Origin: Pezizomycotina sp. ARF18
Lineage: Eukaryota > Ascomycota
Assembly (NCBI GenBank): GCA_002224055.1
Contig: AZLU01000039.1
Coordinates: forward strand, 62,001-126,000
DNA length: 64,000 nucleotides
Reading direction: 5' to 3'
Positions 1,229 through 59,271 of the stretch are shown in pieces. Position numbers and translations under genes: made by a program. Within the stretch, counting starts at the first letter, position 1. Each line of letters starts with the position of its first letter. The notes beneath the pieces were generated by a model. It searched no databases, was not told the DNA's origin, and was given only the letters and a program-made list of their open reading frames with translations.

Positions 1229-3938
1229 GAGCGATTTTAACCTGAAATGGATAGGGGCAAAGATAAACCGACATCCTGATAACCAGCTCTCCGTCATTCC
1301 AGAAATGGGCGTATGTTTGGGAATAAAAATAAGGGGATGGCAATCCCTCCACTCTCGCTTCTCAATTATTGCTTTCTATAGCGTTTGAGAATCTTCTATT
1401 ATGACCGTTGCTACTATCGTGGTTGCCTTTTTACTACTACTGCTGCTACTACTCCTGCTGTTATCGCTGCTATTGCCGTTGATGCTTGTGAAATTGTATA
1501 TTATTGATATTTGATAATGCTCTTTAGTAGTCGTTTACGCCGTTGTTGCTACCGTTGATGCCGTTAATACCGCTGATACTGTCGATGTTTAACTCACGCG
1601 TTGGCTCTGCAATTTAATGCTATTACTGTAATTTAAGGCTGCTGTACTTGGTACCCTCAATATGAGTATACAAACATGAATCTGTCGCTACTAGTATATT
1701 AACCACCTAAAAACTTGATAATACTAGTGACGATGCTATCGCAGTCGATCTTGGATTATCTTGGGGAGGGGACGGCAATTTGGTTCAAATCTTTGATCCT
1801 CTAAGTTTTAAATTCTTCGTTACATAACAATATCGCTCCCTATGTAGAATAGTATGGAAATAATATTTGTTATAGGTAGATATAGCTATTTCTCCTTCTT
1901 TCTCCTCCTCTCCACTCTCTGAGCTTAAGGCGAAGAAAAAAAAGGGGGGTATGGCCTCCTCAGAACTCTCAAATCGGAGAGAACAATGCAATTCCTAAGA
2001 TTAGTAAAGACGCTCGCGCCTCCAACGGTCCCTGCTATGCGCACCTAATTAGAGGATTCCAATTTACTAACCAGTCTGCCTCGTAATATAGACCAGGCTC
2101 GTTCCTCAAATCGTCAAATACTAAATCAGCTAATGAGGCAACAATGAGAGCGCTGTTAGGGCCTCAAACTCGCCCGATCCGATTTGGCTGGTTGGCGAAG
2201 GAGAATCGCGAGACTATATAATAAAGTCGTTAATTTGATCCATGATGTGTTCCACTTTAGCGGCCAGCAATTTTAACAGATGAAAATCGCCCAAGCAAAT
2301 TGAAGATACGTACCGGTATAACAAGCGTCCACAACGTCGACGGCCCAGATGGCGATGAAAATTTTCAAGATATGACGAGAAAAAAAAGTCACTAATATTA
2401 ACGATAGATGAACCTCCCCGAGTGCGAAAATTCAACTCAATGACCGAAAGATATAATAATGACTCAATAAAACAACCAATCACGACAAAAATATTTTATC
2501 GATATTCGTGATCAATAGCTATATTCCTATAAGCGTATCACCAGGAAAAGCAAGCTTTGCGCATTGTCGTATACCTATCTTACCTGAAAGATCATGCAGA
2601 TGCGACATACATATCCGGTTTGCGTCGTTATGCATTCTGCCTCTAACTCGCGTGCGGCAGCTCGCCTTTCAAACTGCAAGTTTGAGGTCTTTATATACAA
2701 GCCATCCGTCTAAACCACCCACTAGCAGCTCACTCAGGCTTTCAAAAAAATTTTTACCAATACCTCTTCCTATCCCAGGAAAAGGATTCTCTGGCCTTCG
2801 TAGCACCGATGTTCACCTTGGCATGTGGATTGATCACCGGTCTCTGATAATAGCCGAAAACGAACGCGAACAAACTACGAATTCACGGCATATAAGCAAC
2901 GGTAACGCAAAGTGCAACCTCATATATTATTTTGTAGAAGAACTGGAAGGCTGTTTACCTATCCATCTCAACTGGCCATCCAGCCTTAAAGATTTAACAT
3001 CAAGATGTGTGTATACGCGCATGGGCCTAAATTTCCCCCATTTGTATATGACATGATTTCCAATTCGGGGCTTTGGGGTCTAAGTAAAAAGCTGCCCCGT
3101 TGCGTTGGAGGCTTTTTCGTAAACGGTTGGAGTGTGTTTTTTTAAATGGTATATTTCCAATAGTCTATATAAATATACCGATAGCGACGATATCACGAAA
3201 CAACCGCAAAAAAAAAAAAAAAAAGAAGAAAGAAAGAAAGAATTGAATCTACAAGAGTTGGGATTCCCACTTTGTCACAACAGTAGTACTAATCAACGAT
3301 ACGAGGCTTGTTTAGGCAGAGCGGACGGGATGCCAAATTTTCCTCGTTCTGTGCTCGTAGATGTCTGGTGCACCTGCGAAGCCGGTATATATGCTGTGGT
3401 TGAGGTTTTGGCAAGGGTGAAAATTTTTTTCCCTTTTTTTTTTTTTTTTTTTTTGGTTTTGAACTAGGAGCGATATTGGGCGCATTAACTAACCGAAGAG
3501 GTTTCTGGAGAGCTCTAACCGGGGAAGCCTAGCTTCTTCGCCAAATAGCGTTTATAAGATATCGACGATGGAGAGAGTGCAATTGATGTTCGCGGCTGCT
3601 AACACTCTATAAATCGTATGCTTCCAGAGCTAGTCTATGATGGTGTCTAAATACACCTTTCATATGGAGGGGGGAAAACAGTTGGACCGGAACTATTCTC
3701 CTCCTTCACGCCACTGTTCACGAAATCACCCTGGATGTGTCCTACCAATTGGCCGGGCACTCTCCGACAAAAGCCGGAGATTTCTCTTTGTAATTGCTTT
3801 TGCTAAAATGAGTGGAAAAAGATGTGATATTATCCATATAACACCGTATGCAAAATTGAATTTCCCCCGCGTCCCCCTCCTTCCGTCGCTAAAAAAAAAA
3901 ATATCTCCCGTAACAGATATGAAAAGTTCTACCATTCA
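1229..3938. other. Intergenic DNA; imperfect trinucleotide tract and one orphan reading frame
   Basis: About 1400-1590 is an imperfect CTG/CTA/GTT-type trinucleotide tract. A 182-codon plus-strand reading frame runs 2508-3056; it is not recognisable and is listed separately. Long A and T runs occur near 3210-3230 and 3427-3454. No tRNA or conserved protein was seen. Confidence 0.5.
2508..3056 (+). CDS. Orphan reading frame, possibly spurious
   Basis: Uninterrupted 182-codon frame, notable because most true genes in this window are frame-broken. The product is Ser/Pro/Arg-mixed with no recognised domain, no signal peptide and no clear membrane segment. Nothing in its surroundings supports expression. 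It may be a chance reading frame in a moderately AT-rich spacer, or a lineage-specific gene. Confidence 0.2.
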   Translation: MINSYIPISVSPGKASFAHCRIPILPERSCRCDIHIRFASLCILPLTRVRQLAFQTASLRSLYTSHPSKPPTSSSLRLSKKFLPIPLPIPGKGFSGLRSTDVHLGMWIDHRSLIIAENEREQTTNSRHISNGNAKCNLIYYFVEELEGCLPIHLNWPSSLKDLTSRCVYTRMGLNFPHLYMT

Positions 3939-27644: not shown

Positions 27645-29259
27645 TCAATCACACCCGCACCGCGCGCAATCCCTTTCCCTCTCCCGTTCGATCTCCTCCT
27701 CCTCCCTATCAATCTCCGCCTGCGTCCTCTTCAAGCAAGGTATATACCGTATTCTTCGGCAAATACCCACATTCGCCCTCTCCCTCTCGTGCACGCTCTC
27801 GTGGTACAGCGCCTCGTCCGGAATATCCCTCGTGAAGCCCAAATTCGGCGGCCAGTGTCTCGGCACCCACTTCCCAAACTCCAGCTCCAACCGCGTGAAA
27901 ATCGGACTGATCTCAATCAACCACCAACTCAGCGTCGCCATCTTGCCCCAACCGCCGCCGAATTTCAGCGCGTCATGGACGGTCGCGACGCCATCGAGTG
28001 CCTATTTTTCCGCCAGAGACCGCGTACGGCGTGCATGTCCAGTTTAACCGGTCGGTCGATTGCGGTCCGACGTCTTTATCTTCGATCGCGATTACTTCTT
28101 TTAGCATCCAACCCAAGGTAATGTCGGAGATTAAAGGCCTGCCTTCTTCGATGGACCAGCCGCCGCCTATGTCAGCGTGGTTTCCGGGAAACCATACTTC
28201 TTTAACATCCTGCTTCTTGAAATCGACCCCCTGGCTCTGCGCGTACAAATACGGTTTAAACTTCGCCCGTCTTTCGTCGATCGCGACCGCATGTCTAACG
28301 TGATCTGCAGCCGGCGGCGCATCCTCCGGAAATGTCTTCCGGAACATCGGCATCTCAAACCTACCCACGCTATTAACGGTGTCGTATAATCCCAAAAGGT
28401 AAACGCGGACGCCGTGTCTGCAGAACGTGTTCTTGAAGTGCTGCATGTGCTTGTGGATTGTTTTAGCGGTCTTAGTCCGGAGGTTTTTTATGCGCTCGAA
28501 TTTGGCGAAGGATTTGTAGGCGAAGGGATCAGTTCTTCGTTTCCGCGGTTTAGGAGGCCGACGTTTTGGACCATTTGGGCGAGGAAGCGCGCGGTGTAGG
28601 CGCCCCGGGAGAAGCCGAAGATGTAGATTTTGTCGCCTGGGGAGTAGTAGCGCATTATGAAACCTGAAAATGGGTTCGTTAGCGCCGACTTCTCATAATC
28701 TTGACATCTTTGGTTTCTCTCTCTCTGTTTTTTTTTTTTTTTTTTTTTTCTTTTTTCCCAACCAGAACGACTGGTAGGGGAAATGTATACATACTGTAAC
28801 CCGCAATAACGTGGTGATCGAAACTCGTCCCGACGGCTTCGTCTATGCTCTTCCTGACGTAGTGCTTCACCCGCGCCCAAGGGCCGGGCGCGAAATCGTG
28901 CTGGCCGGAAATGTACGTCCCTATTCCCGGTTGGTAGTACATGTACTGCTGCGGGTCGTGCTTGTCCAGCATTTGGTATATCTTGACTGTAAAACAGACG
29001 AAATATTTCTATTAGTTTCCGACTTTCCGTCTCATAACCCTCACCTGTTCTCCCTTCCTTCTTGTTCTAGGCACAATTTCCATACGAAGAGCCCTTTTCA
29101 ACAACAATATATATATATATATATATATCTCAAGGAAGAATACTCACCGATATTCGTATCATCCTCCCCACCATGGAATTTATTCCCCGTCCCATCAAAG
29201 CACAGCACCAGCCGCTTAATCTTCACTTCGATCTCACGTACTTGACCAGCGTACGGCAT
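27645..29259 (-). CDS. DUF2235 alpha/beta-hydrolase family protein
   Basis: ATG 29259: [12 protein letters not shown] then [17 protein letters not shown], the DUF2235 opening. Exon 1 29259-29148, intron to 28987 (contains a TA dinucleotide repeat); exon 2 28986-28795, intron 28794-28664 (contains a long T run); exon 3 from 28663. Exon 3 carries [20 protein letters not shown] with the nucleophile elbow G-F-S-R-G, then [32 protein letters not shown] and later [37 protein letters not shown]. Stop taken at 27645. The family includes bacterial type VI secretion phospholipases (Tle1); fungal members are uncharacterised. Ser, the DTV Asp and the NHADIGGG His are all present, so the triad looks intact. 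The frame break after GNEELIP is repaired in thought by one extra G in the plus-strand GGG at 28525-28527. Confidence 0.93.
29107..29128. repeat. TA dinucleotide microsatellite in DUF2235 intron 1
   Basis: About eleven tandem TA units inside the first intron of the DUF2235 gene; AT-rich intronic microsatellite of no obvious function. Confidence 0.8.
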
Positions 29260-32200: not shown

Positions 32201-33887
32201 ATCAAGGGCCCAATATTATTCGCCTCGATATTTGATTTAAAGCGAAAGGGCCGCTCTTTTTTTTTTTGGTATCCTGAACAGTAAATGCGAAGAACCGTTT
32301 CGAAATGAAAGGCCGGCTTTTGGTGATATAGAGAGACGAGGCGATTGAATTGGGAAACCAATCGATAATTATGAAAGGGTATCAGAGCTTCCGATGGTAA
32401 TGTTTTCGGTTATCTTACTTGGCGGCTTTGGACTGAAGATGTGAGAGGTGAAAAAACCAACAGCAGATCCGAAAGGATGCAAGTCTTGAAGAAAGGTGAA
32501 AAGAGCGAAGCAGATTCCTTCAGGAGAAGCTGGCATGATACGGAAAAGATGCCTAGAGCAAAACACTAAGTGTACTTTGCAGGTGTATACGAACCTTGCA
32601 AATCACATATCAACAAAAAATGGTTTATATTGCGCATGAAACATAAAACATAAATAGCAGGCACCTCTGTTTTGAAAGCCAAAGAAAATCACTGGTTAAT
32701 ATGATAACGCGTTATGATAATAGCAGGAAGAATAGTAGAGTTCTTTAATAAAGGCTCAAGCCCTCAAGTTTTCGTAAGATGCGACAACATCGCGGTGATA
32801 TATGTTAGCAGCTATTAAAGGTGATCAAGTTCTTCACGGCTTGTACGCGACCAATACCCGCATTTTCCCTTCCTTAGTTGAACTACTCAATATTGTCATC
32901 CTCGTGGTAAATTTGAATATAGATTTTGAGTTAGTAACTTGAACAACTATTAAGTATTGTTTAGTAAAGCTTTTAATGTTCCTGTTGATGCTGCCTTCGT
33001 ATTATGGGTATACCAGACTTGCCGGTTCTAAACCAGATATCAAGTCTAATAGTAGTCTCTGTTAAAATAATACTTCATAAGCTTAAATATGTAATAAAAA
33101 ATATCGGCCAAGCTGCCAAAATCAAAAAGGTATTTCTCTTAAACTGTGTATAAATCTGAAATGATCAGATCAGTGTTTGTCGTTCGGCCATATTCGGACA
33201 ATAATAATGTTGTTTCTAATCTTTACACCTGAACAAAGTAACATTGGCTGTTTTTTTTTTTTATCTCCTTGGAATCTTTTTTATCTATCACGGGAATCGT
33301 TATGATGTATTCTCTGAAAGCTCACCTACTAGTTCGTTAGTCGTTCTTTCTATTTTCCCTGAGTGTTCTATAGATCTACTTTAGACCGAAAAAAAAAAAA
33401 AAAAAATAGGGCCAATAGTTTACAGACTTAATTTACCTCCCCATCTCTCCCTCCCCATTTCTTCAATAACGTCCTGCCGCCGAATATATTTACGATATGT
33501 ATAGTTAGGTGCAGATACTGTATATAATATACAATTACTTTAATACACAGTTTAAAAAAAAATGATGAAAGATTAGGATACGCTATCCTATTAGAAATAA
33601 AATGTTTGGGGCATATAAAGTCCTCCGTTTTGGAGGAGTATTTTTTTTTTTAGATACCTCGAATGGTCTCTCTCTCTCCCTAGTCTCTTCATTTATCAAT
33701 AAATTCATAAAACCGCCCCGCCGCCCTCTACTTTCGCGGCGTCCCCCACCTTCTCCTCGGCACCCGCGACATTTTCCTCATCATCTACATTCCTTAGCCC
33801 TGAATCCCTAACCTTCTCCTCACCATCTACTAGTTTCTCCTCCTTATCCACTCCACCCTCCCCTCCACCGCCACACTCCCATCCCCT
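29260..33887. other. 4.6 kb AT-rich gene desert
   Basis: No conserved protein, tRNA or rRNA seen. Contents: four tandem GGGGCA-like hexamers at about 30440-30460; T runs at 31149-31160 and 31280-31302, an A run at 33390-33406; and a diverged copy of a short repeat that also occurs at 43.3 kb (see 32731-32835). Confidence 0.45.
32731..32835 (+). repeat. Short peptide-encoding repeat, family A copy 1 (pseudogene fragment)
   Basis: Reads AGRIVEFFNKGSSPQVFVRC then DNIAVIYVSSY before a stop. It aligns with the copy at 43287-43398 (AGRIVKFFIEGLKPKVLARC, SDIAGICMAVV). About half the residues match and DNA matches are in blocks, so this is a diverged copy of one ancestral coding segment. I do not recognise the parent gene. 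Confidence 0.5.
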
Positions 33888-34788
33888 TCACCATCTTAAC
33901 CTCACAAACCCCTCTTTCTCCCCCTCGGTAATAAACCCAGCGTACGTCTCCCCGCATACAGTGCCCTCAAATTCCTATACTCCAACCTCCTCAGCACCCC
34001 CTTTATTACCCTCCTCCCTCCACCGCTGCCACTGCCTCAGCATCAGCAAAACGTTAAGCGGTCCGTGAACGACCGGCGCCGGGTGCCGCTCTACGTCACG
34101 ACAGTAGTCCGGATTATAGTGTATCTGGTGCGCGTTGAACGTCACCGCGGAAAATCTGAAGAGCGTTGGTACGTCGTGCTTGTAGAACTCTTTATGTATT
34201 GCGTCTTTACCTAATTCTTCGAATTCCCCGATACTAGTTTCGGCGGGGAAGGGTGGTATAGGAGTTGATGTATCTACGGCAGGTAGATACACCCAATTCC
34301 TTTCCTCCTCCACCGCAACGTTCTCCGGATCCGCTCCGCGCCAGTACCTCTTCCCAACCTTCAACAGCAACATATCCTCCCCTCCCTCCTCGTCTAACTT
34401 CGGCGCTTAACAACTTCGTCCACTCCCTACAACCTTACCACACGCAGGAACTTCTTAGTATTATTCCACCTCATAGTACCCCCCGCCCACATCCTCCGCG
34501 GGAATTTGGTCGTGAGCGGTGCTTCCATGCGGAACTCGTCGAACGCGCCGTCGGGGCGGAGTTCATGTTGGGGAGCGAAGGGGAGGAAGTACGCGAGGTG
34601 GCAGGCGGGGGGTATTTTTGCGGGTTGCTTGTACTTGGGAGGTTGGCGGTAGCTGGAGACGCCGAGGACGGCGTTTAGGCGGTGGAGGGTTTCGGCGTCG
34701 ACCATTTGGGCTGTTGTGCGGTGGAGGGAGTGGGTGTGAGGAAGGAGGCGATGTGGGCGGAGAGGGAGGAGGTGGTGGTGGCGGCCAT
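33888..34788 (-). CDS. Hotdog-fold itaconyl/mesaconyl-CoA hydratase-like (HTD2 family) dehydratase
   Basis: ATG at 34788 (MAATTTSSLSAHIASFLT). After a shift: MVDAETLHRLNAVLG, HLAYFLPFAPQHELRPDGAF, TKFPRRMWAGGTMRW; then after another shift KLDEEGGEDMLLLKVGKRYW, EERNWVYLPAV, the hallmark FRFSAVTFNAHQIHYNPDYC and PAPVVHGPLNVLLML. A last shift gives LEYRNLRALYAGETYAGFIT and stop at 33888. Architecture (N-terminal FAS1-like half with RRMWAGG, C-terminal hotdog with FNxHxIH) is that of HTD2/mesaconyl-C4-CoA hydratase. Family members either dehydrate 3-hydroxyacyl thioesters in mitochondrial fatty acid synthesis or hydrate C5-dicarboxylic CoA esters. The neighbouring CitE-like lyase favours the latter. 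The break before AGETY needs one extra C in the CCCC at 33950-33953. Confidence 0.82.
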
Positions 34789-34930
34789 GGCTTTGGGCCT
34801 TTACTGGAGGCGTCGATCGGGGAGGGGCTGTTGATGTGAAGGATTTGGAGTGTTTATGGCGGCAGAGGATCGAGGATCTGAGTTTGACGTTTGTCGGTCG
34901 GCAACTGCCATATCCTTTTTTCTAATTTGT

Positions 34931-35105
34931 TATTTTATTTTTATTTTTATTTTTATTTTCATTTTCATTTTTATTTTATTTTATTTTTATTTTATTTTTA
35001 TTTTTATTTTTTTTTATTTTTATTTTATTTTTATTTTTATTTTTATTTTATTTTTATTTTTATTTTTATTATTTTATATATTTTTATTTATTTTATATAT
35101 TTTTT
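34931..35105. repeat. TTTTTA/TTTTA microsatellite-like tract
   Basis: About 175 bases built almost wholly of TTTTTA and TTTTA units with occasional C. It sits in the divergent promoter spacer between the hydratase-like gene (-) and the SDR gene (+), so it may influence nucleosome placement there; that role is inference. Confidence 0.9.
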
Positions 35106-35457
35106 AGGCCGCGGCGAATGCTGAATGGAGGGGAGGGGTTCTAGAAGCCCCACCATGCCGAAAAATAGCGGGGCACATTTATTGGCAATTTAATACCCGA
35201 AAAACACTAGAAGTATAGTACAGATACTTAGTATATATATTGAACATCACCAGTCCCTTCTTCAATTCCAACCTAATTGACTTCAATTGCCATCAGTCTC
35301 GAGTTTCAAAGAAAAACTTCTTCAATACTCAAGCAGGTATTGCTTTTGAAGACAGCCGTTATCGTTTTCATTCGAGCTGGTAGCTATCTAATTGATCCCT
35401 CGGAAGCTATCCAAACAGCCACCGAAATAAACTCCTTTCATAAATCTCGAAAGAGCA

Positions 35458-36300
35458 ATGTCGAACGCCACCACGCAACCCCGTCTCGCCGGAAAAATCT
35501 GCCTCGTAACAGGTATCTGTCTCCTCGATATCCCCTTCTCTTACGATCAGAAATGTTCTTACTGATAATTTCCCTCTCAACAGGCGCGGCATCCGGCTTC
35601 GGCGCCGCCATATCCCGCCTCTCGCTTCTCACGGCGCGACGGTAATCCTCACGGACCTCAACGAGGAACTCGGCAAATCCGTAACCTCCTCAATACCCAA
35701 CGCACACTTCTCTCCATGGACGTCTCCACCCCGCTCTTCCTGGGACTCCGCTGCATCTTATATCAGCTCCCACTTTAACGGCAAAATCGACGTCCTGGTA
35801 AATAACGCCGGCACATCCTACCGCACAAAGCCCAACCTCGAAACTTCCGAAGAGGAATTCGATAAAGTCGTCGCCGTCAACCTTAAGAGTATATATTTAT
35901 CCTCGCAGACGATAATTCCTTAATGATAAACAGGGAAACGGTGGTGTGTAGTTAACATCGCGAGTATCGGAGCATCGAGGCCGCGTCCGGGTTTGATATG
36001 GTATACGCTACAAAGGCGGCAGTTGTTAATGCGTCGAAGGGTTAGCAGGGGAGTATGGAAGTAAGCAAGTTAGGGTTAATGCTGTTTTGTCCGTTGCTCA
36101 GTGGGACGGGTTTGTTTTCGACGTTCGTGGGGGTGGAGGATACGCCGGAGAATAGGGAGAAGTTTCTGTTTAATGTACCGCTGAAGAGGTTGGCGGAGCC
36201 GGAGGATATAGCGAATGCGTGCTTGTATTATGCGTCTGATGAGAGTAGTTTCGTGACGGGGACGAGTCTTGAGGTCGATGGGGGGAGAGGCATTGCGTGA
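35458..36300 (+). CDS. Short-chain dehydrogenase/reductase (SDR, classical)
   Basis: Exon 1 35458-35512 (MSNATTQPRLAGKICLVTG), intron 35513-35583, exon 2 from 35584. The cofactor motif spans the intron: TG-AASGFG (TGxxxGxG). In order follow HGATVILTDLNEELGK (one frame over), KIDVLVNNAGTSYR (NNAG), NIASIGAS with the catalytic Ser, a WY..ATKAAVVN region with catalytic Tyr/Lys (frame-shifted), NVPLKRLAEPEDIANACLYY and the typical C-terminus FVTGTSLEVDGGRG. An acidic Asp at the end of beta-2 (LTD) suggests NAD(H) preference. Substrate unknown. It lies between a hydratase-like and a CitE-like gene, so a dicarboxylate or hydroxy-acid CoA-linked role is possible but unproven. A second intron with GT near 35888 is likely. 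Four or more frame breaks. Confidence 0.92.
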
Positions 36301-36741
36301 AGAGATTGGGAAGGAAGGTCGGGGAACGTGGCTTTTGAAAGCATATAGAGATTCTAGAAAGATAGATAGACGTGGATGTAATAGATAAACCATGATATAT
36401 TTCAGGCATAGTATAATGGTTCCTTGCCAACTGAGACGTGCCGTCTTGTAAGTTTCGTAGGGACAGATACGAGCGTGCAAAAGTGAGAGCGTGCTTTTCA
36501 CCGGAGCGACAGTTTTTCCGCCCGCCGGGAAAATAATTCTATCGTCCGGGTTAAAACCCTCCCCACCTACAAAGAACACAAACCTTCGACCGTTTCACCT
36601 TTCCAATGCTCAATTCCTTCTCACTACCACGATCACGAACAACTTACACCGTCACAAGACCCTTCAGCCTCCCCAATTCCTCCTCCGCTACCAGTAACCC
36701 ATGACGTAAACCGTTGTCTCGCTTTCCCAACCATTTCCACG

Positions 36742-38850
36742 ATGTCGCTCTCACTCCGAAGCTGCCGCGGCCGCTTGTACCTCGTCAGACACCGTCACAC
36801 CCGCCGCACTTTCGCATCCAGGTCCTCCAAACGGGACAGCAGAAAGGAACCCGATGTTACCGAGGAGGAAGAACCCAGAACCCTCAGTAGGCTCCCGGAG
36901 AGCCAATTCGAAGGCTTAAAGGAAAAGCAATCTTCCGCTCTTCTCCTTCCTTTCCATCCATCACGAAGTTACCACCGGCGCAGGATAGGAGGAAGAGAAC
37001 CTGAGTTACCAGTTCAAGCGGCTTCTGCGTTCGCAAGACGTTAAAGAGGGCGCAAAGGGAAAGCGGGGCGGATTTTCGTTTCTTCCTACCCTTCCGTCTC
37101 GCGGCAGGTGTTAGTGGGGAAGGATAAGCGGGATAACGAGCATAAGGTCGAGCGGCTGCTGCGGTCTTTTTTTTACGGTATGTTCTTTGGGATACGAGTG
37201 GTGTATAACACTTTCGCTTCAGTTCCTTTCTCTTTCTTTTTTTTTCTTTTTTTTTTTTTTTTTTTTATAAAGGAAATAGCTATACCAAGATCGCTAACAT
37301 ACTCTCTTGCTTCCCCCAAGTCCCCGGTTCCAACATGAAATTCCTCTCCAAATGCCACTCCCACAACGCTGACCTCGTCGTCCTCGACCTAGAAACGGCG
37401 TCGAACCGTCCCAAAAGCACACCGCGCGCACGATACTCGCGCAGTACCTCCGCGAGCTCAGCTCCGCCATCGCAGACAAAACAATCCGCCGCAGTAGCAT
37501 CGCTCTCCGCGTCAACGCTCCAAACACAGAAGATCTCCGAAAAGATATCCTGCGCGTTCTAACGTCGTCCGGTGGTACCTTAATTTCTACAGTTGTGATG
37601 CCGAAGGTCACGAGTCAAAGGGACATTCCGAGTTTTATTAGCGTATTGCAGGAGCACGGGAAGACGAGGGGACACTATTATAATAGGTGGCTGAGGGAGT
37701 ATTTGAGGATTATACCGCTGATAGAGTCGCCGAAGGCGCTGCTGAATTTTGAGAAGATCGTTTGCTGCGGCGGCGAAGATGCCTATGAAGGTTGATAAGG
37801 GGTTGACGATGATGATTCTTTTGCGGCGAGGAGATGCCTGCTGCTGTTGTAAGTTTTTTCCCTTCTTTGGCTTTTTACTTTCTCTCTCTCCCTCTCTTTT
37901 ATTTTTCTTTTCCCTTCCCTCTTCCTTCTAGTTTGGTAGGGATGACGAATATTTTGGGATCGAGGAATATGGATGTTTTGCTAACAATGGTGTTGCCTCT
38001 CTCTTTTTTTTCTTTTTGTGTGTTCCTTGTAGTTCGCCGCCGAAGATTTCAGGGCCGCCGGGGTATGCCGTACGTCGAGGGTAACGCGAACTTACATTAC
38101 GCCAGGAGCCAGTTCGTCTTGATGTGCAAGGCGTTCGACATTGAGCCTTTGGATATGGTACAAAACTACCCGATTTTTTTCTTTTCCTACTAAATACTTG
38201 ATTGAGGGGAGGTGGATATTGATAAATTGTGTGGATAGGTCTGCCTCGACTTCCGCGAAAAAGATCAGAAGACATTAAAGGCCGAGTGCAAAGAAGCATA
38301 CGAAATGGGGTTTACAGGAAAGGTACAATACCACCTTCCCCCCCCCCCCCATTCGTTTACTCTTTTCTTTTCTTTTCCTTTTTTTTTCAATAACGTTAAC
38401 GCAATATTACAGCAAGTAATCCACCCCACCCAAATCCCCACCGTAAACTCCCTCTTCGCCCCACTGCCTCCCAAATATCCTTCGCCCAGAAAGTATGGGC
38501 CGCCAAGAAAACATCCAAGGGAAACCGGCGCGGGAGCCGTCGAAGTCGACGGGAAAATGATAGACGAGCCGATGTGGAAGTACGCCAAGCGTACGCTGGA
38601 GAAAGCCTTCCAGGCCGGGTTGATTAAGGAGGCGCCGAGGGAGAAGAGTAAGAGTAAAGAGAGGAAGGAGGTGAGGGTGAAGAGTGATGATCTGGAGAGG
38701 GTGACGAGCGCTATATTGGAGAGGCAGAGGGAGACGTTTAAGAGTAGTTTGAGGAGGGAGAGGGTCGTACGGGCGATGCTGGAGGAGGAGGAGGAGAGGA
38801 AGAAAGGTGAGGAAGGGGAGGGAGGGGAGATAGGGAGGTTAGAGAGATAA
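36742..38850 (+). CDS. CitE/CLYBL-like (HpcH/HpaI family) acyl-CoA lyase, probable citramalyl-CoA lyase
   Basis: MSLSLRSCRGRLYLVRHRHT... is Arg/Ser-rich without acids for about 25 residues, resembling a mitochondrial presequence. NEHKVERLLRSFFY joins across intron 37178-37320 to VPGSNMKFLSKC; then ADLVVLDLE and (one frame over) GVEPSQKHTAR, the metal-binding LED/LEN segment. Later blocks: IALRVNAPN, VVMPKV, IPLIESPKALLNFEKI, FAAEDFRAAGG, ARSQFVLMCKAFDIEPLDM, intron 38158-38238, CLDFREKD, EAYEMGFTGK, intron 38323-38412, QVIHPTQIPTVNSLFAP and GAVEVDGKMIDEPM. These are the diagnostic motifs of CitE-like lyases, which cleave citramalyl- or malyl-CoA to acetyl-CoA plus pyruvate or glyoxylate. A Lys/Arg/Glu tail follows, stop at 38850; a repeat-encoded acidic extension may continue (next entry). 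Intron structure near 37848-38035 unresolved. Confidence 0.88.
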
Positions 38851-38869
38851 TAGAAGATATAGATGATGA

Positions 38870-39187
38870 AGAGGGTATCGAGGATTTGGAAGATTTGGAG
38901 ATATAGAGGATATGGAGGATTTAGAGGATATTGAGGAGTTGGAGGATATAGAGGATTTGGAGGAGTTGGAGGGTATAGAGGATTTAGAGGATACTGAAGA
39001 TATAGAAGAGAGGGAGGAAAGTGAGGATTTAGAGGATATAGATGATATACACGATGTAGAAGGTAAAGAGGATATAGATGACAAGGAGGACAAGGAGGAC
39101 AAGGAGGACAAGGAGGATAAGGAGGATAAGGAGGACAAGGAGGATAAGGAGGATAAGGAGGACAAGGAAGATAGGCAGGAAAAGGGA
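38870..39187 (+). repeat. Minisatellite encoding acidic Glu/Asp/Leu and Asp-Lys-Glu repeats
   Basis: Two tandem families. About 38876-39060 has degenerate 9- and 18-base units like GATATAGAGGATTTGGAG (ED-I/L repeats); 39078-39170 has near-perfect 9-base GACAAGGAG or GATAAGGAG units (DKE repeats, roughly ten). A plus frame through 38912-39220 stays open and encodes an extremely acidic peptide. It could be a frame-shifted C-terminal tail of the CitE-like protein (the preceding frame already ends in EEEEERKKGEEGEGGE) or a coincidental minisatellite in its 3' flank. Confidence 0.75.
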
Positions 39188-39220
39188 GAAAGAGAGGAGA
39201 GGGAGAAGAAGGAGAAGTGA

Positions 39221-40104: not shown

Positions 40105-41369
40105 TCACACGACCAGCTCCTTATACACCTCCTTCTCAATCTCGACGATGAAATCCACAATAGGCCCTTCCGCAGTCGGCAGCAGCTGAGTGGAGCTGTT
40201 CACCGCAATGCCGCTCTTCCTGTCAACCCACACATGAGGTTCGGCCATACCACCCCAGTTCAGCGAACCGGCCTTCCTCCTCCCAGGGTAGTCTGACATA
40301 TTGATCAAACCGCTGAGACCGTAGTTGACCTTCATACCAGTTCCTGCAATACCAGGCTGCATGAGTGTACCCATAGGGCTGTCCGCGGTCTCTTGGAGCA
40401 TCTTGAGATCGTCGCCTTCGAGTTGCGGCCTGAACATCTCGTCCACGGTCTCCTTCTTGAGGATGCGGGTGCCGTTGATCCCTCGCCGTTGCGGAGAACC
40501 ATTCCGAGAATTTTGGAGTAGTCGTCCGGTGTGCTGAACAGTCCGTGACCACCGTATTCGCCTGTAGCTAGGTCGGAGGCCGAGTATCGATGTCCGCGAG
40601 TCCTCCGGGGACTTGTTCGTCATATCCATCAGCTTCTCTTTATAATTCTCGACGTATTTTTTCCGGGCTGAAAGTCGTGCTCGTCATCCCGAGCGGTTTA
40701 CAGAGGGCTTCCTGGAGGTAGGTTTCCAGGTCCTTCTTCCTGAGGCGGGAGACGAGGAAGCCAGCCCAATCTATGCCAGTGCCGTAGGCCCAGCCGTGGC
40801 CCGGTTCGAAGACAAGTGGAGCGGAGGGAAGTCTTCCGGTTTATATCCGAAGAAGCTCATGTCGGAGCTCAAGCCGTTCGCCTTGCGCCACTTGGCGGCG
40901 GCCGGTTCATGGCAGGGTACGTCAGGCCCGAGGTGTGTGTGAGTAAATGCCGGAGCGTGATCTTGTTGTCGGCGTGTTCTTTAATAACGTTGCCTTCGGC
41001 ATCTACCACGGGGAGCCCCTTGAGCTCAGGGAGGACGTCATCGACGGGGTCGTCGAGCTTCAGAGACCGTCCTCGACGAGTTTCATCGCCAGGACGGTGG
41101 TTATGAGCTTGCCTTCGGAGGCGATCCACATGAGGGTTTGAGGGTGGACTGGTTCGGTGCGGTGAAGGCCTATGGTGCCCTCGGACTTTTCGTAAAGGCG
41201 GTTGCCTATAGTGTAATGTTAGACATGTTGTAGCACATATTATATATGGAGTTGTGCTTACCGTTCTTGTCAGTAACGGTGAGAACAATGCCGGGGGTAA
41301 TCATCTTTGGGCCGGCGGTCGTTATCTCCTGGAGCCTAGCGCGAGAGCGTCCATCTTAAGGCTAGTCAT
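40105..41369 (-). CDS. Class C beta-lactamase-fold serine hydrolase/transesterase
   Basis: ATG 41369 (MTSLKMDAL); after a shift RLQEITTAGPKMITPGIVLT, intron 41261-41206, then NRLYEKSEGTIGLHRTEP. The nucleophile motif S-x-x-K reads LMWIASEGKLITT; next KLDDPVDDVLPELKGLP, ITLRHLLTHTSGLTYP (the LL.HTSG block), later GGHGLFSTPDDYSKIL, GTRILKKETVDEMFRPQL, YGLSGLINM, GSLNWGGMAEPHVWVDRKSG and a C-terminal EIEKEVYKELVV, stop at 40105. The fold covers class C beta-lactamases, fungal LovD-type acyltransferases and EstB esterases. The GMAEPHVW block matches fungal members, which lack the bacterial KTG triad, so esterase or acyltransferase action is likelier than antibiotic hydrolysis. No signal peptide. 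Three or more frame shifts. Confidence 0.92.
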
Positions 41370-55009: not shown

Positions 55010-56104
55010 TTAGCAGTACGAGCTTCGTTCACCGAGTTTTGCGGCATTCTTGCCTTCCTCCGAAGCCACAAGCGTCACAAGGCCTGCTAACGCTGCCGCT
55101 CCACATGGCCGCATTAATCCCTTCCCTACCAAGCTCCTGCACCGCTTCATGCGCTTGCCGGTCACTAACCGTAACACTTACGCTCACAGCCTCCTTCAAC
55201 AGCGGCCAAGCGATCGTAGACACCGTGCCGCAATTCATCCCCGCCATAATCGTATCAGTCGTCTCCACTGTCACCATCTCGCCGGCACGCAAACTAGCAT
55301 TCAAGCAAGGCGCCGCAGTTGGTTCCACCGTTATCACAGCAGTACCTTACACCGACCCTCCCGCTTGTAATGTGCCACGACAGCATGCGCCAAGCTCCCA
55401 ACGCCGACGGGGCAGACGGCGGCGTCGATGCCCGCCCCGTCGGGCAGTTGCGCTTCGACTTCCTCGAATAGGTGGAATACCCCTGCGATACCCACGCCGG
55501 TACTTCCGTGTATTCGCGGAACGCGTTGTCCTGTATATGTATACCCCCGGCTGCAGCTGCCGCATCTACCGCGGCGTCGTAGTCGCCGTTTACCACGACG
55601 ACACATACGTCCGTATCCGTCGTGTTTTCTGATTTTATACGCTGCTGCGTTGCAGCGTCCATGACTAAGGGCACGTATATTTCGCATATCTGCACGGATA
55701 GTAACGCCGCCATCCTCGCCATGGCGCGACCAAAGTTACCGTCTGTTGCCGCAGTGAGTTTTATCTTTTTCGACTCCGAGCGTTGCCGTACAGCGGCTTT
55801 TAATTGCTCTAATGTCGTCGAGTTATGGGGCAACTCAAGCTCGCGGCATAGGGCTCGGAAGACGGCATAGCTTGCGCCGAGTATTTTAAAAGCAGGAAGA
55901 CCGAAGCGGACGTTCGCATTTTACGAAGACGTTCTTGAGACCGAGCTCCCTCGTTAGAGACGGTGATAGAGCGACGAGTGGTGTCGGTGCATAGGATGGC
56001 AACTGTGAATGAAGCTTTGCGGCCTCAGTCGACGAAGACGAGGATAAGGACGTCGAAAGGCGACAAGACGCCGCCGAGTGATTTGTGTAAATTGACATGG
56101 TCAT
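55010..56104 (-). CDS. PLP-dependent diaminopropionate ammonia-lyase-like enzyme
   Basis: Fold-type II PLP enzyme (tryptophan synthase beta superfamily). ATG 56104 (second Met at 56098): MTMSIYTNHSAAS, then AKLHSQLPSYAPTPLVAL and LGLKNVFVKCE. One frame over: RFGLPAFKILGASYAVFRAL with the Schiff-base Lys in AFKILGAS. Then AATDGNFGRAMARMAALLSV, VVVNGDYDAAVDAAAAAGGI, HIQDNAFREYTEVPAWVSQG, VCPVGVGSLAHAVVAHYKRE, the DTIMAGMNCGTVSTIAWPLL signature, and after a shift CGAAALAGLVTLVASEEG (PLP-phosphate/C3 region) with stop at 55010. Order and motifs match diaminopropionate ammonia-lyase, which converts 2,3-diaminopropionate to pyruvate and ammonia; fungal homologues may act on other amino acids such as D/L-Ser or Thr. 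Active-site lysine present. Same strand as the fusion enzyme 980 bases upstream. Confidence 0.9.
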
Positions 56105-57083
56105 GCCTGCACGGAAGATAGCTGTTTTTGATTGTAGGAGAGGAGTTCAGTGATCTCCGATAGATCGAGGTGTTTAAGTTTAAGCTTCGAAAACCCGCCT
56201 ATAGCGGTCGCGGAGGTGATGCGGGCTACCTATAGACTTGGCACGCAAACGGCTAGCGGCGATGACTTCGCGATGCAAGTAGAAGATCAAGTATAACATT
56301 CATCCTAGGTGTTCCGTATTGTCCAATTATCTAGTCCCTTGGTGTATCGATTCACGTAGTAAACTATAGCATTGATACATCCCCCTATTTCGGGACGGAT
56401 TTCTAAAGCACCCCTTTTCACCTACTTAGGTTTCGTTTTGACTTTAGCTGCATTAATTCTCGTTGCATTGAGGTTTCTATTCATAGATGCAATTATATAT
56501 CTATTCTAAGTCTGTCGATGGTTTGAATTGCAATTTTTAAGTGCAAAATCTTATATTATATTTAATGTCACTGTAAAGCGCAAGCTTATCATTCGCGAGC
56601 GCGATAAAACCTCGACTAAATAAACAACCTACAGTATCGTCACGAGTTTCCGGTATACTAGGGATTCACGCCGCGTTAACTCAATCAGACGAAATGAAAC
56701 ATTGAAATTGAGTATAATGAAGTTGTTACATTATTTTATAGAAACTAAGAAAATCCCCAAGGTATTTTGTAGTAAGGTATTTATCTATAGGTCAGAATCA
56801 AGAAAGATATCATGACATTATTACAAAAGAAAAGTATGAAAAGAAACAGAAAACATGCCAAAAATGCTGTATAACATCAGAAGAAAGACGAGAATATCAC
56901 AATCTATATGTTTTACACCATTGTCTTAAAAACCCGAGATGCTTCAAACAAAATCAAAAACTTTTAGTGTTTCCCCCAAAATGCAGTGTGATGCATTACC
57001 AGATGCCAGTTGTTGTGGACGACCTTGCGCTATTATTATTATTATTGAATAAAAAGAAGACAGAGCGCGTTTAAGGGAAAGGC
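56105..57083. other. AT-rich spacer between the PLP enzyme and fusion enzyme genes
   Basis: No coding or RNA feature recognised; a short TTA/ATT repeat near 57030-57048 belongs to the 3' flank of the fusion gene. Confidence 0.5.
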
Positions 57084-59271
57084 TCAGCGCACCACCTGAC
57101 CTGCGGAGGTGCCTTTCCGGATCCGAACCTGGGACCGGGCGTGCAGCCACCTCGCGTTATCAATAACAACGAGCGTTCCATCCTTCAAGTAATCCGGGCG
57201 GAAAACGCCAACAAGATCCTTCCTCTTCTCGAGAACTTCATCGAGTTCGTCAAGTGCAGCAGCGGCGCGGGGCGTACGGGGTTCCATAATATCCCTCCTG
57301 AACCTCATCTTAATAACACCCTCGGGAGTCTCCTCCAGCAGCGCGCCGACGGCGTAATCTTCACCCTTGTAGAACTCGTGCGGGACTTCGATGTCGAACT
57401 CCGGAGCCTTAAGCGCCTCGATGGTAGACTGCGAGAGATTCGCGACGAGTTCGTCGATGTTGAGAACGCTCAGGTGGCCACCGCCGAAGCGGTCCGCGTG
57501 GACGACATGCAGAGCGAAGAAGCGGGGCGGGTTAGGATCGAACGAGCAGTCCGTGTGCCAGGGGAATACGTTCATAGTCTCGGACCTCGCGAGGGGTTTT
57601 CGGCAGTGGACTTGACGCCGTGACGGGTTTTACGTCCCAGAGCCAGCCGCGGGTGAGCGAGTGGTCGACGGGGAGGCCGTGTCCGTGCATAGCGTGCAAT
57701 CCGTCGCGGACGAGGTGGACGAGGTAGTCAGACTCAGGATCGGCGAAGTCGACGTCGACGATTGCGAGGCCGGTGGAGTGTAAGTCGTCGACGATGCGCT
57801 GGACGTGAGCGGGGTCAGAAGCGTCGGAGAGGGAAGTAGCCTGGATGCGGTTCGGTGGGTAAGGCGGGTGGGATTGCCGCGGGCGAAAATCTCAGCGCCG
57901 GCGGCGTCGGTGACGGGTGCCATCCACGTGCTCCCGTGGAGAGAGCGCAGAGGTCGGAGGCGGAGGTTCGCATGGTCCGTAGCCGCAGAAGGAACCGTTG
58001 ACGGAGAAGTACGTGCCGACGAGCGGCCAGGAGACGTTGCGGGGACCGCCGAGCTTTGTGGGGGCGAGGATCATCTCGTAGAGGCGCTGGTGCACGCGGC
58101 GCTGGAGGACGTGCGGCTGGCCGGAAGTGAGGAGTCGGTCCATTCTTCCTCGGAGACGTCGGCGCCGAAATGATACCCTCGCCTTTACCGCGGCCGGCGG
58201 GCTTGAACAGCCACTCGTGGCGGTCAGAGGCGGCCTTACGGTAGGCGTCAGTTCCTGAAGGCAGGATTCGGCGATACCCCTGCGGAGGCGGCGGCCTGGA
58301 GGTCCGTGAGGACACCGCGGTAGATCAAGTTATCGATCTCCTGGGTGATGATGGCGAGCATACGCTTGTCGTGGGCGAAGAAGATGGTGCGGAGGTCATT
58401 GAAGTGTGCGCGGACGGCGAGCTGCTTGATCATCTCGACGTCGAGCTTCATCATCTCATCCTGGTGGAGCTCGAGGACGAGCTGGTGGATTCCTCGCAGG
58501 TAGTAGTGTCGATGACTCTGTACCGGTCTTGGACTCAGCCGAAGCGACGAGCTCGAGTTCTTCGGGGGCGATGAAGCGGACTCCAGCGCCGGCCTTGAAG
58601 AGCGCAAGATCGTAACCGTGCTCGCGGCCCTTGACGACGTAGACCTTCTTGTCCTTGTTGAACGGCTTAGCGAAGGCAGCAGCGAAGTTAACGGCGGCAG
58701 ATACATTTGCTGCGAAGCCTTGCCGGACTGTGCGTAACCCTCGCGGAGGTAGTCCTGCAGGATATCGCAGAGGAGGCCACCGTGGAACGGGAACCTAGCG
58801 TTGATCTCGCAGATTTAGCAACAGTGCCCTTCTCATCGCCGTCGATCAAGAAATCCGGTCTCCAGCTTCCGGTCCTGTTGTAGTAATCAGGAAGCTGCTC
58901 CTGTAGCCAAACGAGGACCTGCTGGATCTTAGGATCGACGGGAATGCGCTCGTAGAACTTGGACTCCTCGTCGTCCACCACCTGGTAATAATGTCAGCGA
59001 CGGCGGCGTGAAGGCCATTGCTCAGCTGCTGAGTGTCCTTGATGAACTGAGGAGAGATGAAGATCGGGTTAGGGTTGGCCTGGAGGTAAGTGTACTCCGT
59101 CGCGGACTTGTACTTGGTATCATTCTTGGTATCGGTGATGTCGATGCGGGACGGGAAGTGGTGGAAGTGCTCGAGTGAGTCCATCGACTCTAGCGAACCG
59201 GACGCCGAGTAAGGCGAGACGGTCTGGTACATGTTCTCGTCAATGCGACGTTCGACGAATAGCGAAGGCAT
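57084..59271 (-). CDS. Fusion enzyme: ATP-grasp-like N-terminal part and TauD/TfdA Fe(II)/2OG dioxygenase C-terminal part
   Basis: ATG 59271: MPSLFVERRIDENMYQTVSP, then SPQFIKDTQQLSNGLHAAVA, FYERIPVDPKIQQVLVWLQE, NRTGSWRPDFLIDGDEKGTV, ICEINARFPFHGGLLCD (acid/Asn metal-like motif), FNDLRTIFFAHDKRMLAI, HEWLFKPAGRGKGEGI (Lys/Gly-rich nucleotide-binding-like loop) and KLGGPRNVSWPLVGTYFSVN; these resemble an ATP-grasp ligase layout. The C-terminal part has VDFADPESDYLVHLVRDGLH, then NVFPWHTDCSFDPNPPRFFA with the iron ligands H-x-D, HVVHADRFGGGHLSVL, IKMRFRRDIMEPRT and LVVIDNARWLHARSQV with the distal His and 2OG-binding Arg. The stop at 57084 follows a shift; one extra C at 57123-57124 would instead give DPERHLRR, so the true end may lie slightly downstream. 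I remember Pezizomycotina proteins with this whole layout; substrate unknown. At least six frame breaks. Confidence 0.85.

Follow-up and report, generated by a model that had tools for sequence, protein, structure and literature searches.

A hydratase gene and a CitE/CLYBL-type lyase gene lie side by side in a filamentous fungus: a candidate gene pair for itaconate or C5-dicarboxylate breakdown

The closest described systems for the breakdown of itaconate through coenzyme A (CoA) esters are the Aspergillus genes ictA, ichA and cclA and the bacterial ict-ich-ccl (rip) operon, with which we compare here a hydratase gene and a lyase gene found in a 64,000-base stretch of DNA from Pezizomycotina sp. 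ARF18. According to the excerpted text of PMC6320622, the three genes of A. niger (An07g00760, An07g09220 and An01g08610) are not clustered, those of A. terreus (ATEG_06299, ATEG_03709 and ATEG_03186) have numbers that lie far apart, all three A. niger proteins carry predicted mitochondrial targeting sequences, and knock-outs of ictA and ichA stop the conversion of itaconate. The end product in A. niger is reported to be citramalate, and an uninduced cclA is offered as one explanation in the excerpt of PMC6862759. As for bacteria, the excerpted text of PMC12290011 reports that itaconyl-CoA hydratase has mesaconyl-C4-CoA hydratase activity too, that the CoA-transferase gene is missing from the itaconate cluster of some bacteria, and that C. 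necator has second homologues of the hydratase and of the lyase, which are unlinked and thought to serve other pathways. The last point calls for caution in naming a function from the family alone.

The stretch analysed (C39:62001-126000), called the window below, belongs to a genome assembled into 408 contigs that total 46,361,250 bases, and from its introns and genes we judge the source to be a filamentous fungus. Three genes are located at about 33.9-38.9 kb of the window, namely a hydratase on the minus strand, followed on the plus strand by a short-chain dehydrogenase (SDR) and a CitE-like lyase. It is plausible, and we hold it with about even confidence from sequence comparison, that this is an itaconate-type hydratase side by side with a citramalyl-CoA-type lyase. 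The families and positions observed are as follows, and the copy numbers detected are given with each gene.

33880..34911 (ends approximate), minus strand: hydratase of the FAS1-like/MaoC hotdog type (itaconyl-/mesaconyl-C4-CoA hydratase or HTD2), from the PDB match, three-frame reading and bacterial profile
33978..34406, minus strand: open C-terminal hydratase piece that carries the conserved core LFRFSAVTFNAHQIHYNPDY...VVHGPL, from the PDB match and alignment
34430..34921, minus strand: open piece of the N-terminal half of the hydratase, IPPACHLAYFLP...PRRMWAGG, from alignment and the bacterial profile
34925..35096, no strand: TTTTAT-type tandem tract, about 170 bases long, in the spacer from which hydratase and SDR diverge
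35458..36300, plus strand: SDR (PF00106, E 1e-14), with about 8 frame changes by eye
36742..38850, plus strand: CitE/CLYBL-type lyase with a presequence-like start and several introns (by eye), from PF03328, the PDB match to CLYBL and reading

The first-pass annotation had named the same three genes, and they are present; what it lacked is that none of them has a single open frame, each showing several frame changes where an intron is impossible. It had placed hydratase and lyase less than 3 kb apart with the SDR between, which agrees with start positions about 1.8 kb apart on opposite strands. Its statement that Aspergillus carries these steps beside a CoA-transferase does not fit the unclustered A. 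niger genes and the distant A. terreus gene numbers (PMC6320622, as excerpted). Compared by description only, the Aspergillus set and this genome share the same three enzyme classes, a presequence-like start of the lyase and a second hydratase-family copy besides. They differ in that the A. niger genes are unclustered according to the excerpt, whereas here the hydratase and lyase are close together and a different contig carries the candidate CoA-transferase.

For the hydratase, the start may be the ATG at 34911 or at 34788. Its C-terminal piece matches the PDB entries 8khg/8huc over residues 58-128 (E 1.1e-11), whose titles are itaconyl-CoA hydratase and MaoC_dehydrat_N domain-containing protein, in agreement with the itaconyl/mesaconyl-CoA-type hotdog hydratase proposed earlier for the minus strand. 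Nothing in the PDB matched the N-terminal piece up to E 10, and the hydratase pieces fell into no family in Pfam (E 0.1) or NCBIfam (E 1), so that the identification is based on the PDB match of the C-terminal piece together with the bacterial relatives. A whole-genome search with PF13452 returned nothing up to E 1, the window hydratase included, and this model is therefore too weak for broken pieces. The only genome match of PF01575, on C120, was set aside as a different MaoC gene. When the genome was searched with the two pieces, the N-terminal one matched itself only, and the C-terminal one found one further copy at C393:14399-14551 (50% identity over 50 residues), on a contig that also carries a GARS gene (PF01071). 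The C393 copy matches 8khg too (E 1.2e-9) and keeps the core motif. The hydratase is thus not the only copy in the genome; the first-pass annotation would have counted it against its reading if the hydratase had been HTD2 in a single copy.

The lyase begins with MSLSLRSCRGRLYLVRHRHTRRTF, which by eye resembles the mitochondrial presequence described earlier, and one of its pieces matches PF03328 (E 9.8e-9). This is the sole PF03328 (HpcH/HpaI) match detected in the genome, in a search that found just one stretch of the gene and may have missed other members. Against the PDB, one lyase piece has CLYBL 5vxc as its sole match up to E 1 (E 0.0027), while for another piece 5vxc is the best of 12 (E 1e-5), ahead of the Mcl entry 5ugr (7.3e-4), 8khl, 9nzb and 3qll. 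The PDB title of 5vxc is citrate lyase subunit beta-like protein, mitochondrial, and we take it to be human CLYBL. Since the lyase is best matched by CLYBL and is the only match of its family detected, the reading as an itaconate-type pair gains support. Directly past the lyase stop there is a GAGGATA/GACAAGGAG minisatellite (38840..39214, plus strand) of 9-, 18- and 27-base units, which one frame reads through as an acidic EDKEDK repeat; given the many indels, it could encode a C-terminal tail of the lyase.

To compare gene neighbourhoods, profiles and a tree, the best 80 bacterial relatives of the hydratase were used out of at least 591 confirmed (at least 594 matched), with up to 4 kb on each side and many contigs shorter than that. 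An HpcH-like open reading frame (ORF; E 1e-5 or better) is found in 16 of the 80 loci, the weakest being L057 with an ORF of 183 residues (2.2e-6). By the C-terminal piece, the nearest of the 80 are L012 (85.5 bits), L013 (75.5) and L014 (75.1). In L012, two family III CoA-transferases stand before the hydratase and a lyase directly after it. In L014, one family III CoA-transferase stands before the hydratase and a lyase after it, followed by a protein that matches 2-methylfumaryl-CoA isomerase over its full length (621.7 bits, below the cut-off of 725). The L014 gene set presumably belongs to the 3-hydroxypropionate bi-cycle, as its mesaconyl-C4-CoA hydratase/Mcl part, with the same hydration and cleavage at citramalyl-CoA. 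Both groups, the first and third of the 80, which we take to be of the Meh/Mcl type, resemble the window in a hydratase that adjoins a lyase and presumably in the citramalyl-CoA chemistry. A VYLP motif shared with L012, L014, L026 and L032 was tried as a marker of lyase linkage and dropped, as it occurs in four loci with and four without a lyase seen. Besides, the ict-ich-ccl operon has in common with the window a hydratase homologous to 8khg and a lyase of the HpcH/HpaI family; unlike the operon, the window has the genes on opposite strands, no CoA-transferase detected on the contig, and a lyase nearer to CLYBL than to the other acyl-CoA/citrate lyases of the PDB.

The first-pass annotation saw no CoA-transferase in the window, and genome searches with PF02515, PF01144, PF13336 and PF02550 likewise detected none on C39, the matches being on C49, C90, C171 and C177 only. 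Two family III genes (PF02515) were detected, one on C49 and one on C90, the latter racemase-like by eye. The nearest solved relative of one C49 piece is 9br7 (E 1.2e-9), whose PDB title is succinate--hydroxymethylglutarate CoA-transferase and which we take to be SUGCT. The best NCBIfam model is succinate-glutarate CoA-transferase for two of the three C49 pieces and formyl-CoA transferase for the remaining one, with every score far below cut-off. Matches to PF01144 (family I) lie on C171 and C90; the only matches to PF13336 and PF02550, of the acetyl-CoA hydrolase type, are on C177.

The itaconate-type reading of the pair is further supported because the hydratase core matches itaconyl-CoA hydratase and the window copy outscores the C393 copy on the bacterial profile, and because the L012 and L014 hydratases adjoin a lyase and CoA-transferases, with a SUGCT-like transferase present on C49. 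The HpcH-like ORFs in 16 of the 80 bacterial loci count in its favour too, as do the two hydratase-family copies, which mirror the ichA and HTD2 genes of A. niger. If it holds, both enzymes would belong to mitochondrial C5-dicarboxyl-CoA breakdown, the SDR between them having no known part. CoA would be added by the SUGCT-like family III transferase from the other contig or by succinyl-CoA synthetase, the hydratase would turn itaconyl-CoA, with mesaconyl-C4-CoA as an intermediate, into (S)-citramalyl-CoA, from which the CLYBL/CclA-type lyase would release acetyl-CoA and pyruvate. We infer in this way that the hydratase is IchA rather than an HTD2 paralogue, as well as the substrate, the compartment and any regulation that the genes may share.

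Several results weigh against this assignment. The adjacency of hydratase and lyase is not known from A. niger, as far as the excerpted source goes. For the middle lyase piece, which includes HYARSQFVLMCKAFDIEPLDMV, the PDB gave nothing up to E 10, and the best NCBIfam family of both lyase pieces, RipC, gave 26.3 and 26.4 bits and did not reach its cut-off of 375, a weak test as separate pieces were scored with a bacterial model. The best relative of the N-terminal hydratase piece is L030 (48.1 bits), with L012 and L014 unmatched at E 1e-3; no lyase was seen in the stretch of L013 examined; and the L012 lyase, unlike that of the window, is of the Mcl type and not CLYBL, its best PDB match being the malyl-CoA/beta-methylmalyl-CoA lyase 5ugr (283 bits; CLYBL 111.8). 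A tree of 180 columns, built from the two fungal copies and the 80 bacterial relatives, joins the window and C393 copies as sisters (support 0.919) on branches of 1.6 and 1.4, and each copy matches the consensus at 34 of the 49 conserved columns covered in both. On the profile of the 80 relatives, the window pieces score 42.0 bits (N-terminal) and 99.1 bits (C-terminal), about 141 in sum, and the C393 pieces about 104 (summed by hand), sums that are biased by the position of the frame breaks, which differ between the copies. With a profile of only four sequences (L012, L014, L026 and L032), the window copy has 99.9 bits versus 136.8 for the profile of the 65 relatives outside the lyase-linked set. 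The SDR piece had no match at E 1e-4 among the 80 bacterial loci and five at the looser threshold of 0.01. Finally, just one locus of the PrpD family was detected in the genome, on C16, and so there is no sign that the fungus makes itaconate.

The main rival explanation takes the window hydratase as HTD2, the mitochondrial 3-hydroxyacyl-acyl carrier protein (ACP) dehydratase, and the C393 copy as IchA, so that the lyase would be nearby by chance. A table in the excerpted text of PMC6320622 lists ichA and an HTD2 gene together for A. niger, where HTD2 is An17g02190; the PDB and bacterial searches made with the hydratase copies turned up no HTD2 reference sequence. We read ichA and HTD2 as one hotdog family, and the two copies here mirror that pair. 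With two paralogues present, one would be expected to be HTD2, and both are about equally far from the bacterial enzymes; the core motif and the 8khg match do not set the window copy apart either, as the C393 copy has both. The tree does not say which copy is IchA, because the copies join on long branches with equal consensus matches. The median identity to the 80 relatives, for window versus C393 in three blocks, is 0.41/0.40, 0.53/0.53 and 0.35/0.24. The profile of 15 lyase-linked hydratases (the 16 loci minus L057, the weakest, which was moved to the other set) and that of the other 65 treat the window copy alike (127.3 vs 136.8 bits). On balance the window copy is slightly favoured as the CoA-type enzyme by its sequence, with a somewhat better score against the bacterial CoA hydratases, and it also adjoins the sole detected lyase of the pathway; the HTD2 explanation stays a serious but tentative one, which we hold to be possible rather than probable. 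The A. niger paper (PMC6320622) was the only one found that treats HTD2 together with itaconyl-CoA hydratase, and we found none on Htd2/hotdog proteins in mitochondrial fatty acid synthesis or on itaconate degradation across fungal genomes.

In a bolder form of the HTD2 explanation, the SDR would be the matching 3-oxoacyl-ACP reductase, and indeed the SDR piece has 10 PDB matches, 4 of which bear the name 3-oxoacyl- or 3-ketoacyl-ACP reductase. Yet the best of the 10 is 8sy8 TsaC (E 1.1e-10), the best NCBIfam model is PRK07231 (NF005559; 67.8 bits, cut-off 215) and not FabG, and the protein starts with MSNATTQPRLAGK, where no presequence-like stretch is visible by eye. The SDR gene has a GT-AG intron of 71 bases at about 35513-35583 (by eye), and no sign was found that it is a member of the pathway. 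As for the spacing, the naive chance of a placement within 3 kb is about 2.6e-4 (one lyase locus, two hydratase-family loci, 46.36 Mb), the true weight of which is much smaller because the pair was picked post hoc from many possible stories. It is quite doubtful, although conceivable, that the last two itaconate/C5-dicarboxylate steps are physically linked in this lineage and that the divergent SDR contributes to them, perhaps by acting on citramalate or on a lactone such as 2-hydroxyparaconate, in a small catabolic cluster absent from A. niger.

The pair may also act on a CoA ester other than one from itaconate, such as mesaconyl-C4-CoA or citramalyl-CoA from another source, or a malyl-CoA-type ester. 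This overlaps chemically with the itaconate reading, and it fits the relatives, which adjoin a malyl-CoA-lyase-type gene in L012 and a 2-methylfumaryl-CoA isomerase-like gene in L014, the additional mesaconyl-C4-CoA hydratase activity of itaconyl-CoA hydratase (PMC12290011, as excerpted) and the single PrpD-family locus. We consider it unlikely; against it stands that the loss of ictA or ichA blocks itaconate conversion in A. niger (excerpt of PMC6320622).

The broken frames raise the further question of whether hydratase, SDR and lyase are decaying remnants with true mutations. All three are broken, and by eye about 8 frame changes fall within about 0.8 kb of the SDR, denser than the 5 in about 1.45 kb of the chaperonin gene on C54; this excess, from counts made by eye, is suggestive only (Poisson P about 0.007 against the point estimate; P 0.05 when the two counts are compared). 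For the genome as a whole, 33 matches of the chaperonin family PF00118 were sorted by hand into 8 genes. It turned out that in 7 of the 8, at least one frame change falls between pieces separated by fewer than 40 bases, which leaves no room for an intron; there are 13 such changes in total. A few changes (on C139, one of the two on C99 and one of the two on C20) are less sure, with strongly overlapping or nested matches, and without these the count is 6 of the 8. The eighth gene, on C70, has only two distant matches. The genes concerned are on the following contigs.

C54, C24, C20, C53, C99 and C139: chaperonin genes with frame changes, from PF00118 pieces

Because chaperonin genes, very likely essential and hardly all dead, are broken too, an unpolished assembly or assembly error is the likely main cause of the frame changes. 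Besides, the core motifs of hydratase and lyase survive between the breaks, and we regard the decay of the three genes as improbable. The assembly seems rich in indels, and gene-decay claims from this genome therefore need care.

Other features were found in the window as well. A 5S ribosomal RNA gene (3246-3362, minus strand) is the only feature that Rfam detects at gathering score in the window. A Tle1-like phospholipase catalytic domain lies at 28491-29066 on the minus strand (PF09994, E 2.5e-20). Beyond the lyase there is a beta-lactamase-family protein (40105-41300, minus strand), of which the piece 40872-41300 matches PF00144 (E 1.6e-9) and the neighbouring piece 40108-40683 has no Pfam match. 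At 55297-57629 on the minus strand, a PALP-type enzyme piece (34.9 bits, cut-off 35) is near a TauD-type dioxygenase piece (E 4.1e-11).

The enzymes and the pathway are already known, and what is new here is at most the gene order, which is unreported for A. niger. If the window hydratase is IchA, the locus would be a case of the pathway beyond the two Aspergillus species of the papers cited, and its position would offer a clue for telling IchA and HTD2 apart in other genomes. The linked lyase would also suggest full breakdown, in contrast to A. niger with citramalate as its reported end product (PMC6862759, as excerpted).

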